Of a DNA stretch of 64,000 nucleotides, positions 1 through 4,315 are shown piece by piece. Location: contig JAUNOA010000002.1 of assembly GCA_030531245.1 (NCBI GenBank), forward strand, positions 1-64,000, given 5' to 3'. The position numbers and the translations under genes are program-made. The notes beneath the pieces were generated by a model. It saw only the letters and a program-made list of their open reading frames with translations. It did not search any database and was not told the DNA's origin. This stretch comes from Lachnospiraceae bacterium (GTDB lineage: Bacteria > Bacillota > Clostridia > Lachnospirales > Lachnospiraceae). The number at the start of each line of letters is the position of its first letter. Positions within the stretch are counted from its first letter, which is position 1.

Positions 1-1
1 G

Positions 2-1579
2 GTTCCTGTTTCAGCAGACAATAATAAATATGTGTTGACAGAGGATCTGATTCTGGCATTCGCTCCGATTATTTTCGGACAGTATAGTGTTGTAAACAGT
101 ACCCTGATCCGCCTTGTAAGAAATGCAGACATCTCCATTGATGATGATCGTCCGGATGACCTTGAGCTGAAGAGCAAGGATTACCGCAAGGCAATGGAGA
201 AAATGATTGCCACCAGAAAACGCATGGGTGCGATCAAAATGGAATATACCGGAAAAATCGATGCGAACCTGATTGCTGTCATCTGCGAATATCTGAAGCT
301 TCCGAAGAAACATGCTTTTTATTCTGATGCGCCGCTTGATTTAGGATTCCTCGGAGACGTTTCGGCAATGCTGTCGGATCGTAAGGAACTCTATTATCCT
401 TTGCGTGTTCCGCAGCCTTCACCGAATGTTTCTGAAGACAGAAGTATGATCGAGCAGATCAAAAAGAAAGACATACTGCTTTCATATCCTTATGAAAGTA
501 TGCGTCCGTTCCTTCGCCTTCTGACAGAGGCGGCAAACGATCCGGATGTCGTATCTATCCGCATTACACTATACCGTGTGGCAAAAACAAGCCAGATTGT
601 TGCGGCACTTGCGCAGGCAGCAGAGAATGGCAAAGACGTACTGGCTCTTGTAGAGCTTCGTGCCCGCTTTGATGAGGCCAATAATGTGGACCAGAGTCTC
701 GAACTGGAGAAATCAGGATGCCGTATTATTTACGGACTGGATAAGATAAAGGTTCACTCCAAGCTTTGTCTCATAACACGCAGAACTGTCAGAGGAGTGG
801 AATATATCACTCAGATAGGAACAGGCAACTATAACGAGAAGACAGCACGTCTTTATACTGATTACAGTCTTATGACGGCAAATCCTGCAATCGGTGAAGA
901 GGCAGCAAGTGTATTTAATGCGCTGGCACTGGGAGATACGGTAAAGCAGACTAATCATCTGCTTGTTGCACCGGACTGTCTGCAGAATGAAATCGTGGAG
1001 AAGATCGATACACAGATCGCAATTGCAAAGGCAGGAAAGCCGGCTTATATCGGATTCAAGATCAACTCACTTACGGATAAGCTGTTGATCGATAAACTGA
1101 TCGAAGCATCGTCCGCAGGGGTAAGAGTACAGATGCTGGTCAGGGGAATCTGCTGTCTGGTTACCGGGGTTCCGGGACTTACAGAGAATATAGAGATCTA
1201 CAGTATCGTCGGAAGATATCTTGAACACGGAAGGATATATATCTTCGGATGTGAAGGCAATGAGGAGGTGTATATCGCCTCGGCCGATCTCATGACAAGA
1301 AACACCACACGCCGGGTGGAAGTAGGCGTACCTGTATTAAATGCAAGAATACGTGCACAACTTCTGAAGATGTTCCGGCTGATGCTGAGCGATACATGTA
1401 AACTTCGTGTTCAGCAGGATGACGGAACATATGTAAAAGTCGTATCTGATGGCAAACCGTTCAATTCTCAGGAGTATTTTGCCGAGAGCAGCTACAGAAG
1501 GGCTAATATACCGCTTCCGGAAGAGGAGAATCCTTCGGTTGCCGAAGAAATACCTGCAGAAAAAATGACCGCAGCATAG
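2..1579 (+). CDS. ppk1: Polyphosphate kinase 1, C-terminal part (5' end outside window)
   Basis: Makes and reverses inorganic polyphosphate from ATP in the cytoplasm. The reading frame is open from base 2, so the gene begins before the window; the GTG at 32 is internal. The visible part holds the two phospholipase-D-like catalytic halves of PPK1: the phospho-acceptor histidine motif KVHSKLCLI, the second histidine motif YLEHGRIYIF, and the SADLMTRNTTRRVEV block typical of the family. The last 30 or so residues are acidic and proline-rich (EEENPSVAEEIPAEK) and lie beyond the usual family end. The frame stops at TAG (1577-1579) and stays open beyond it into a lysine-rich stretch, listed separately. 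Family identity is secure; whether the true protein ends at this TAG is open. Confidence 0.95.
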   Translation, partial: VPVSADNNKYVLTEDLILAFAPIIFGQYSVVNSTLIRLVRNADISIDDDRPDDLELKSKDYRKAMEKMIATRKRMGAIKMEYTGKIDANLIAVICEYLKLPKKHAFYSDAPLDLGFLGDVSAMLSDRKELYYPLRVPQPSPNVSEDRSMIEQIKKKDILLSYPYESMRPFLRLLTEAANDPDVVSIRITLYRVAKTSQIVAALAQAAENGKDVLALVELRARFDEANNVDQSLELEKSGCRIIYGLDKIKVHSKLCLITRRTVRGVEYITQIGTGNYNEKTARLYTDYSLMTANPAIGEEAASVFNALALGDTVKQTNHLLVAPDCLQNEIVEKIDTQIAIAKAGKPAYIGFKINSLTDKLLIDKLIEASSAGVRVQMLVRGICCLVTGVPGLTENIEIYSIVGRYLEHGRIYIFGCEGNEEVYIASADLMTRNTTRRVEVGVPVLNARIRAQLLKMFRLMLSDTCKLRVQQDDGTYVKVVSDGKPFNSQEYFAESSYRRANIPLPEEENPSVAEEIPAEKMTAA

Positions 1580-1747
1580 ACGACATCGAAAAAAAAGACA
1601 GCGACTAAGAAGACAGCAGCAAAGAAAACAACGACAAAGAAAGCGGCATCAAAAAAAACAACAGGCAGGAAACCGGCAAAAACTGCGGGCAGGAAGGCCA
1701 CAGGTTCTACCGTAAAGAAAATAAAAAGAGTCAGAAATAAAAACTAA
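1580..1747 (+). other. Lysine/alanine/threonine-rich in-frame extension after the ppk1 TAG stop
   Basis: The 55 codons directly after the ppk1 TAG, in the same frame, read as a histone-H1-like basic tail up to a TAA at 1745-1747. It is made almost only of Lys, Thr, Ala, Ser, Gly and Arg, with about 18 Lys and 4 Arg, in repeated KKTA and KKTT units (for example KKTATKKTAAKKTTTKK). No start codon or ribosome site opens it separately. The composition is not expected of an untranslated spacer. It is best explained as a C-terminal tail of the kinase that was cut off by a recent nonsense mutation or a sequence error, or that is reached by stop-codon readthrough. No function is known; a polycationic tail on a polyphosphate-making enzyme could bind its product (inference). 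Confidence 0.65.
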
Positions 1748-1799
1748 CTATAGCCGTTCAAAACTAAAATATCAAATAAATAAGGGGGAGGGGTAAAAA

Positions 1800-2777
1800 A
1801 TGGCAGGAAAGTATAATGTTTGTCTGGATATCGGAGGAACAAAGGTACTTGGAGCAATCTTCAATGATCAGAATGAAATAATCTATCGCCTGAAGAAAAG
1901 TACTAAAGAAAACGGAGATGACGTAGTTAATGTTGAGCAGATTATCATCAATACCGTTGCGGAAATGATGAAAGAAGCCAAATTAAAAAAGAGTGATATC
2001 AATGCAATTTCCGCAGGGGCACCGGGTGTCATTGATTCCGATACCGGCATAGTATTTTTCTCTCCGAATCTGCCATGGCGTAATTATGATATCCGCACAC
2101 CTATCGAAAAGAAATTCGGTACAAAGTTCTATATCGGAAATGATGTAAACTGCGGTGTACTTGGTGAGTACAAATACGGAGTCGCGCAGGGTTACAAGAA
2201 TGTTATCGGTATATTCCCGGGAACCGGAATGGGAGGCGGAATCATCATTAATGGTGAGCTTTACACAGGTACAGGTTTCAAGGCAGGAGAAATCGGGCAT
2301 ATGGTACTCGACCCGGAAGGACCCCTCTGCGGATGCGGACAGTGCGGATGCTTAGAGGCATTCTCAAGCAAGAAGGGTATGTCGGCATATATTGTGCAGC
2401 AGGTTGCCAGAGGCCGTGAGTCTTTTCTCGGTGATAAGATCGAGAACGGAGTATTCCGCAGCAAATATTTGAAAAAAGCACTTAAGATGAACGACAAGGT
2501 TGCCATGGAAGCCGTTGAAAGATCATGTCATTATATGGCTGTCGCTTCAGGCAGTCTGATCAACATCTTCAGTCCGGATCTGATTGTATACGGCGGTGGA
2601 ATTATGGAGGCCTGCGGAGAAATCTTCCTTGAGAAAATACTCGATGAAGTGGATAAGTACTGCATGCCTTCTATTCGTCCGACCGTAGAACTTAAACGTG
2701 CAGGTCTGGGAGATGATTCCGTATTATACGGTGCACTGGCTATGATTACTGATTCAGATAAGAAAAAAGCACAATAA
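1800..2777 (+). CDS. glk: ROK-family glucokinase
   Basis: Phosphorylates glucose to glucose 6-phosphate with ATP, feeding glycolysis. The 325-residue length is normal for ROK kinases. Visible motifs are the N-terminal phosphate-binding LDIGGTKVLGAIF, the central GTGMGGGII loop, and the ROK zinc signature GEIGHMVLDPEGPLCGCGQC followed by GCLEAF, in which the histidine and three cysteines bind structural zinc. The C-terminal PDLIVYGGG segment is also typical. The ATG at 1800 follows a strong purine-rich site (GGGGGAGGGG). It stands 31 bases before the deformylase-like gene and probably shares its transcript. Other ROK sugars (mannose, allose, N-acetylmannosamine) cannot be excluded from sequence, but the pattern fits the Gram-positive glucokinase group best. 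Confidence 0.9.
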   Translation: MAGKYNVCLDIGGTKVLGAIFNDQNEIIYRLKKSTKENGDDVVNVEQIIINTVAEMMKEAKLKKSDINAISAGAPGVIDSDTGIVFFSPNLPWRNYDIRTPIEKKFGTKFYIGNDVNCGVLGEYKYGVAQGYKNVIGIFPGTGMGGGIIINGELYTGTGFKAGEIGHMVLDPEGPLCGCGQCGCLEAFSSKKGMSAYIVQQVARGRESFLGDKIENGVFRSKYLKKALKMNDKVAMEAVERSCHYMAVASGSLINIFSPDLIVYGGGIMEACGEIFLEKILDEVDKYCMPSIRPTVELKRAGLGDDSVLYGALAMITDSDKKKAQ

Positions 2778-2808
2778 GAAAGATTATAAGTATTTTGAGA
2801 GAGGTATT

Positions 2809-3297
2809 ATGGTCAGAGAAATACTGAAACTGGGAAATCCGGAATTATACGAGATCAGCGAAAAGGTTGAAGAGCAGGATATGCAGTTTATAAAAAACTG
2901 GGTTGTGGATCTCAGGGATACTTTGCTGGATTACAGAAAAACATACGGAGCCGGTAGGGCAATAGCCGCTCCACAGATAGGAATAAAGAAAAGACTTCTA
3001 TATATGCTTACCGACAGAGAATATGTTTTTATTAATCCGGAACTGATTTTTCCGAATGATGAGTTTATGGAAGTTTTGGACGACTGTATGTCTTTTCCGG
3101 GATTGTGTGTCAAAGTTCTCAGACACAGACAGGCAATCATCAGATACACAGATCCGGACGGAAACAGGCAGGAGATGAAACTGGAGGGAGATTACTCTGA
3201 ATTGCTTCAGCATGAATATGATCACCTTGACGGGATTCTTGCAACGATGCGTGCCATTGATGACAAATCTCTGTTCCTTATGCAGATGAAGCGTTAA
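2809..3297 (+). CDS. Peptide deformylase family protein (divergent)
   Basis: Peptide deformylases remove the formyl group from the initiator methionine using a metal held by one Cys and two His. All three motifs are recognisable in this 162-residue protein: GAGRAIAAPQIG (about 47-58, motif 1), DDCMSFPG (about 91-98, motif 2 with the metal Cys) and HEYDHLDG (about 134-141, the HExxH metal and catalytic site). Motif 2 departs from the usual EGCLS at the first, second and fourth positions, and motif 1 carries two extra residues, so this is the divergent PDF-like branch rather than the canonical housekeeping enzyme. The ATG at 2809 has a GAGAGG site. Catalytic residues are intact, so activity is plausible, but formyl-methionine may not be the only substrate. 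Confidence 0.85.
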   Translation: MVREILKLGNPELYEISEKVEEQDMQFIKNWVVDLRDTLLDYRKTYGAGRAIAAPQIGIKKRLLYMLTDREYVFINPELIFPNDEFMEVLDDCMSFPGLCVKVLRHRQAIIRYTDPDGNRQEMKLEGDYSELLQHEYDHLDGILATMRAIDDKSLFLMQMKR

Positions 3298-3345
3298 TAG
3301 ATAAAGCAGAATGTTGAATTATATGTGTACGGGAAGGTGTAACAG

Positions 3346-3876
3346 ATGAACATAGTTGTATATTTAGGAGCGAATGAAGGCAATGATCCTGAATTTACAC
3401 AAAGGATATGTGAGCTTGGAAAATGGATAGGTGAAAGCGGACATACTCTGGTATACGGAGGTTCCAAAAGCGGACTTATGGGTCATGTGGCGGAAAGTAC
3501 TCTTGACGCGGGCGGTAAAGTCATAGGGGTGGAACCGCAGATGTTCATCGATGCCGGATATCTGTATGACAGGATCGATGAACTCATAATCACTGAGGAT
3601 ATAACCAAAAGGAAATCGAAAATGATAGAGCTCGGAGATGCTTTTATAGCATTTCCCGGAGGTACCGGAACACTGGATGAGATTTCAGAGATTATGGGCA
3701 TGGTAGTTCTGAAGCAGACGACGGCTCCGTGCATCATATACAATATCGGCGGTTATTATGACGGAATAAAATCGCTTCTGGACAATATGGTCAGAAAAAA
3801 TCTGGCCAATCCGGAAAAGCTGAAAGGAATCATTTTTGCGGAGAATCTCGAAGAGATAAAAGAGGTTATAGCCTGA
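3346..3876 (+). CDS. LOG-family (TIGR00730) Rossmann-fold protein
   Basis: A 176-residue protein of the LOG family, many of which hydrolyse purine nucleoside 5'-monophosphates to free base and ribose 5-phosphate. It has the glycine-rich YGGSKSGLMG motif near residue 45 and the diagnostic PGGTGTLDEISE motif near residue 104, which forms the phosphoribose-binding and catalytic site, and a Rossmann-type N-terminal strand (MNIVVYLGANEG). Length is normal. The ATG at 3346 is preceded by GGAAGGTG. It is the last gene before a 44-base palindrome. In plants the family activates cytokinin, but in bacteria it is better read as a nucleotide phosphoribohydrolase; the physiological substrate is not visible. 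Confidence 0.85.
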   Translation: MNIVVYLGANEGNDPEFTQRICELGKWIGESGHTLVYGGSKSGLMGHVAESTLDAGGKVIGVEPQMFIDAGYLYDRIDELIITEDITKRKSKMIELGDAFIAFPGGTGTLDEISEIMGMVVLKQTTAPCIIYNIGGYYDGIKSLLDNMVRKNLANPEKLKGIIFAENLEEIKEVIA

Positions 3877-3895
3877 AAAACTTTACAAACAGCAG

Positions 3896-3939
3896 AAGGT
3901 GTATTATTGTATTAAGTGGTTAATACAATAATACACCTT
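3896..3939. promoter_or_regulatory. Perfect 44-base palindrome: terminator and/or GntR operator
   Basis: Two perfectly complementary 19-base arms (AAGGTGTATTATTGTATTA at 3896-3914 and its complement at 3921-3939) enclose a 6-base loop, followed by only a short T run. It lies between the LOG gene and the GntR regulator. As RNA it would end the upstream transcript. As DNA the inner TGTATTA-N6-TAATACA is the inverted-repeat type bound by YtrA-like GntR regulators, which commonly control their own operon. The double role is inference. Confidence 0.75.
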
Positions 3940-3958
3940 TTTAATTGGAGGTAAACGG

Positions 3959-4315
3959 ATGGATTTTCAACTGAATAATGCACTTCCCATCTGGAAACAG
4001 CTTGCGGAACAGCTGAAAGAAAGGATTGTAACGGGGGAGTATCCTGCAGGGACGCATTTTCCTACAGTCAGGGACCTTGCTGCTGAAGCGGGGGTTAATC
4101 CGAATACGATGCAGAGAGCTATGGTCCAGCTGGAAAACGACGGTCTTATAATTACAAATCGTACATCCGGGAGAGTTGTCACGGATGACAGGAAGATTAT
4201 TGACTCGACAAGGACCCTCCTTGCGCTGGAACGGACCGACAGGTTTTTCAAGGATATGAAAGCACTGGGATATAACAGTGACGCAGCATTAAAATTTGTA
4301 AAGGAAGGAATGTGA
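3959..4315 (+). CDS. GntR family transcriptional regulator, YtrA subfamily
   Basis: A 118-residue DNA-binding repressor. Residues 1-75 form the GntR winged helix (PIWKQLAEQLKERIVTGEYP, then FPTVRDLAAEAGVNPNTMQR as recognition helix region, then a wing with DGLIITNRTSGRVV). The short, all-helical C-terminal tail without an effector domain is the YtrA hallmark. YtrA regulators sit at the head of ABC transporter operons and repress them. Here the next gene is the ABC ATPase, starting one base after the stop codon, and a perfect palindrome with TGTATTA half-sites lies 20 bases upstream, so autoregulation is likely. The ATG at 3959 follows TTGGAGG. The inducing signal is unknown; cell-envelope stress or antibiotics are common in the family. 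Confidence 0.9.
   Translation: MDFQLNNALPIWKQLAEQLKERIVTGEYPAGTHFPTVRDLAAEAGVNPNTMQRAMVQLENDGLIITNRTSGRVVTDDRKIIDSTRTLLALERTDRFFKDMKALGYNSDAALKFVKEGM

Follow-up and report, generated by a model that had tools for sequence, protein, structure and literature searches.

AlgP of Pseudomonas aeruginosa possesses a disordered, histone H1-like tail rich in KPAA repeats and is reported to associate with polyphosphate (polyP) granules (PMC9239181). In Escherichia coli, polyP binding was mapped to Lys-rich sequences of YihI and Rnr, and the PASK motif is defined as at least 75% D/E/S/K within 20 residues, with at least one K (PMC12345225). Here we describe a polyphosphate kinase 1 gene (ppk1) whose frame continues, past an in-frame TAG, into a Lys-rich tail comparable with both systems. 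The PPK1 tail shares with AlgP, a protein found at polyP granules, a Lys/Ala-rich repeat composition and, presumably, disorder; unlike it, AlgP is a separate DNA-binding protein with KPAA repeats that is not fused to a kinase (PMC9239181). The tail also resembles the polyP-binding regions of YihI and Rnr in being a Lys-rich stretch, whereas it falls outside the PASK definition, its best 20-residue segment containing 10 D/E/S/K (PMC12345225). By analogy with AlgP at granules and with Lys-rich polyP binding in YihI and Rnr, product tethering is plausible for intact tails. No description of Lys-rich tails on PPK1 itself was found among the matches listed in a search of the open-access literature.

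The stretch of DNA analysed (the window) spans the first 64 kb of C58, one of the 101 contigs of a 1.84-Mb assembly with completeness rated at 98.4%. The 5' end of ppk1 is lost to the contig edge, and the PPK1 frame is visible from base 2 onwards. In this visible part, PF02503, PF17941 and PF13090 all score above their cut-offs, which identifies the middle and the two C-terminal PLD-like domains of a PPK1 family member, and the core matches the solved polyphosphate kinases 2o8r and 1xdo (phmmer). The original observation that 55 same-frame codons rich in Lys, Ala and Thr, with 18 Lys, follow the TAG was correct in both coordinates and content; the acidic linker that it placed ahead of them is present, although only mildly acidic. 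The Lys-rich stretch is in frame with the PPK1 core, whereas the frame through it is interrupted by the TAG. The coordinates are given in Table 1.

Table 1. Features at the ppk1 end of the window.
Feature	Coordinates	Strand	Basis
ppk1, polyphosphate kinase 1; middle domain (partial), C-terminal domains 1 and 2	2..1576	+	Pfam PF02503, PF17941, PF13090
Linker, residues 499-525, net charge -3, mildly acidic, final MTAA	1496..1576	+	Translation and charge computation
In-frame TAG within Lys/Thr/Ala repeat	1577..1579	+	Sequence
Polycationic frame, 55 codons, net charge +22, partly period-5 (xxxKK) units	1580..1744	+	Translation, shuffles
TAA closing the tail frame, 52 nt ahead of the next gene	1745..1747	+	Sequence
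ROK-family gene (presumably glucokinase-like); also adjoins ppk1 in L002 and L003	1800..2777	+	Gene-order comparison

Read in the same frame, the codons after the TAG translate as TTSKKKTATKKTAAKKTTTKKAASKKTTGRKPAKTAGRKATGSTVKKIKRVRNKN and end at the TAA. Besides the Lys residues, this tail frame contains 13 Thr, 8 Ala and 4 Arg and neither Asp nor Glu, and it raises the calculated pI of the visible PPK1 fragment from 6.05 to 9.30. The repeat runs across the stop (MTAA-stop-TTSKKKTATKKTAAKK), and because the MTAA before the TAG already fits the Thr/Ala repeat, the stop lies inside the tail and not at its border. A copy of another Lys-rich gene of the same genome was considered as a source of the tail and rejected, since KK[TA]3KK is confined to the tail, where it occurs three times, and to a single short ORF of contig C26.

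A scan of GTDB 220 genome contigs returned four PPK1 loci, and the nearest PPK1s are those of L003 (82% identical) and L002 (78% identical). Both resemble the window in keeping the order ppk1 then ROK gene and in a PPK1 frame that runs on beyond the position of the window's TAG. The tail stop precedes the ROK start by 25 nt in L002 and 58 nt in L003, and the spacing in the window is 52 nt with the tail versus 220 nt without it. The in-frame continuation and this spacing in the two relatives support an assignment of the 55 codons to the C-terminus of PPK1 itself. The tails themselves differ from that of the window: they are long, with many acidic and Ala residues, finish in a short basic-hydrophobic segment and lack Lys repeats. 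The L002 tail has about 92 mostly acidic residues and ends in ...SAVKYFGKTAKAIGRRIAELLKK, while that of L003 exceeds 200 residues, its length being inexact because a run of N splits it, and carries a long acidic repeat before ending in ...GIGFIRKLIGIFKK. Thus the expectation that relatives would continue past this position was borne out for the frame and not for the Lys repeats, the Lys tail is specific to the window's lineage, and no orthologous intact Lys tail was seen in either relative. Two same-genus genomes (80% and 73% complete) gave neither a PPK1 match nor a close ROK match, and no same-species or close relative carrying the stop was found among the family, G302-group and relatives' genomes searched. 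The order ppk1 then ROK is also present in the distant relatives L049, L050, L052, L058, L067 and L068, and its occurrence in close and distant relatives alike suggests a conserved operon.

To place the tail among other PPK1s, overlapping sets of genomes were searched, with matches in 244 of 299 family genomes, 60 of 101 genomes around G302 and 288 of 395 relatives; the draw from the genus of G302 yielded only distant PPK1s besides G301 and G302. The C-termini were read from 184 PPK1 loci, giving 161 distinct ones including that of the window, and these comprise best matches and hand-picked extras, not a random sample. Four of the 161 (L020, L095, L015 and L098) contain a 30-residue segment in which Lys makes up 30% or more; of these, L098 has a short C-terminus and looks closer to the basic-hydrophobic ends described below. 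L072 and L177 end in Lys/Arg-rich stretches preceded by acidic linkers.

The closest match in style is L095 (G070:C18), from the same family, whose 163-residue C-terminus carries (STAKK)n in an unbroken frame (KKSTAKKSTAKKSTAKK...). As in the window, the PPK1 core leads into a long tail that is rich in Lys and partly of the xxxKK period 5. Unlike the window, L095 has no internal stop, its tail is longer and includes Ser and acidic residues, and its core is only about 49% identical and lies elsewhere on the tree. The STAKK array (L095:1615-1750) is a nearly perfect 15-bp tandem repeat, and tail length could therefore change by repeat slippage. When L095 with its tail was used as the query, 277 of 392 genomes of the order matched, and among the matches listed only the window runs well into the Lys tail with its frame largely open (query 4-592, one TAG). 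The match in G198:C39 reaches 602 only through 13 stops, and the PPK1 C-terminus there is short; G530 reaches 549, again among the matches listed.

In a tree of 86 PPK1 rows, Lys- or Lys/Arg-rich tails stand in four places. The window groups with L002 and L003, whose tails are different (100/100), L015 with L020 (100/100) and L072 with L177 (100/99), while the position of L095 is unsure owing to its long branch. From these sequence comparisons we infer several independent gains of polycationic PPK1 tails, and the uninterrupted Lys-rich tails at other places of the tree indicate that the tail module recurs. The same-genus pair L071/L172, examined for another instance of a cut tail, does not provide one.

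Other kinds of PPK1 C-termini were also encountered. Short basic-hydrophobic ends after a variable linker (SFWSRLRKAFFG, FLRRLRKLFR; L048-L070, L098-L132) were counted by a loose pattern in 36 of 127 C-termini, a count that leaves out L114 (one of 128 rows, without the anchor, and recovered later with an earlier anchor). Such an end could be an amphipathic helix binding membrane or polyP. Long acidic or Ala/Glu-rich tails extend 131 residues past the anchor in L080, 116 in L096 and 173 in L114, and PPK1 C-termini thus differ widely in charge.

The age of the stop was approached by simulating neutral substitutions over tail codons 1 to 44 (132 nt), with T, S, K, A, G, R and P as the allowed residue set; the Val at position 45 is outside this set. 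The residue set was kept in 8.7% of simulations at six substitutions (4.5%) and in 4% at eight (6.1%), whereas no new stop arose with a probability of 0.88 after six substitutions in the same 132 nt. An open frame alone is weak evidence of translation, and the kept residue set is stronger evidence. The earlier argument that a Lys-rich frame of this length would not survive untranslated was therefore overstated for the open frame and holds better for the residue set. Because survival of the residue set is rare in simulation, the drift of an untranslated tail is probably limited to about 6%, which would make the stop recent.

Taken together, the best explanation (probability about 0.8) is a real polycationic PPK1 tail cut either by a recent nonsense change or polymorphism or by a consensus error in the metagenome-assembled genome (MAG). 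The 55 codons very probably are PPK1's own tail, as judged from the translated sequences, because close relatives continue in frame and other PPK1s have uninterrupted Lys-rich tails. The original assignment of the tail to the PPK1 frame is upheld on the same grounds and by the lack of a separate start. Similar uninterrupted tails in related bacteria likewise point to a genuine tail that was lost recently or has been misread, rather than to a special readthrough signal. The tail may once have been translated, or may still be translated in other cells, as part of one protein consisting of the catalytic core, the short acidic linker and a presumably disordered Lys/Thr/Ala tail. The intact tail would bind its polyanionic product electrostatically and hold the synthase on polyP or the granule; binding of nucleic acid is an equal chemical possibility. 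The single TAG, now in the first repeat unit, would have arisen by a recent nonsense substitution or polymorphism, or would be a consensus error. If the TAG is real, ordinary termination there would yield a tail-less enzyme with its catalytic domains intact.

One branch of this explanation holds that the TAG is absent from the organism, being a base-call or strain-mixture consensus error over a real, uninterrupted tail. This is a tentative possibility. The genome is a 101-contig assembly, intact Lys-rich PPK1 tails occur elsewhere, and one wrong base would be enough, since PPK1 and the tail share a frame. Against it, no other sign of error is visible in the stretch, and short-read contigs with good coverage seldom contain substitution errors. 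An indel or frameshift error was tried separately and rejected: the alternative frame does not keep register with PPK1, runs into a TAA (1606-1608) and yields no Lys-repeat tail, and such an error is not needed because core and tail lie in one frame.

Readthrough of the TAG at a useful rate, with a minority of PPK1 bearing the polycationic tail as a regulated product-binding isoform, is unlikely. The tail is intact and its residue set is kept, as expected under continued translation, and a search of the ppk1-ROK interval detected neither a terminator-like site nor an RNA element, the former lack also fitting readthrough. However, TAG is an ordinary stop in this genome: it ends two of 57 ORFs of at least 100 aa in the window and 21 of 231 ORFs of at least 150 aa in 303 kb of the genome, window included (mechanical counts in both cases). 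The two PylS matches in the genome score 25.1 and 23.2 bits versus a cut-off of 178.15. A pattern search of the genome found no CUA-anticodon tRNA, its four matches being tRNA-Arg(UCU) and three sequences that ARAGORN does not call tRNAs; the real tRNA-Arg serves as an internal control, and the pattern would miss a CUA tRNA that lacks A37 or is encoded in genome parts absent from the assembly. On stop usage, the tRNA pattern and the PylS search, UAG recoding by pyrrolysine or a suppressor tRNA was rejected. Rfam gave no match in 1-4000, the fold around the stop is weak (z -1.42), and among the 25 longest post-stop extensions of the 161 C-termini plus five chosen rows, only that of the window is a Lys repeat. 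Of the three origins first proposed for the stop (nonsense mutation, sequence error or readthrough), the first two are thus retained, whereas no special decoding was found for the third. As separate observations, the window carries its own tRNA-Gln; a 20-kb stretch of another contig (L147, G000:C1:1-20000) contains a tRNA gene cluster and four TAG-ended ORFs and is possibly a mobile element; and one in-frame TGA lies within a match to a ROK-family paralogue of the same genome (L039, G000:C4:3529-4353).

A broader proposal is also improbable, and slightly more so. It holds that some Clostridia-type PPK1s repeatedly evolve disordered polycationic product tethers and that in this lineage the in-frame stop switches the tail on and off, as a standing polymorphism or a leaky UAG, which would give granule-bound and free enzyme from one gene.

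An origin of the Lys-rich frame in chance or in low-complexity intergenic DNA, never part of PPK1, is very improbable. A-rich DNA favours Lys codons, and when the 165 nt were shuffled 20,000 times with dinucleotides preserved, an open frame resulted in 3,793 cases, 33 of which also reached 18 Lys or more. Yet none of the 3,793 open shuffles had a residue set as small as that of the tail, with 10 kinds of amino acid, both nearest relatives continue in frame with synteny, the repeat pattern starts upstream of the TAG, and parallel tails exist on other PPK1s; the tail composition is not due to chance. Five of the 57 non-overlapping ORFs of at least 100 aa in the window have an in-frame extension beyond their stop that is longer than the tail (188-458 codons); in four of them it runs on, without a change of frame, into the following gene, and in the remaining one it overlies an opposite-strand ORF.

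The tail might instead be a small basic-protein gene of its own, located after ppk1 and ahead of the ROK gene, and the existence of small Lys/Ala-rich nucleoid proteins could be cited for this. That reading was rejected as very improbable for want of a usable start codon, as the search for a separate start found no ATG, GTG or TTG in 1577-1799 in any of the three forward frames.

With the 55 codons read as PPK1's own cut tail, the stop codon as such is most likely of little consequence, and the repeated rise of polycationic PPK1 tails is the wider pattern worth keeping. Little is understood of how polyphosphate kinases remain with, or depart from, growing polyP granules. If gained several times on PPK1, polycationic tails would constitute a simple and testable product-tethering device, for which natural tail-plus and tail-minus PPK1s would provide a ready comparison.
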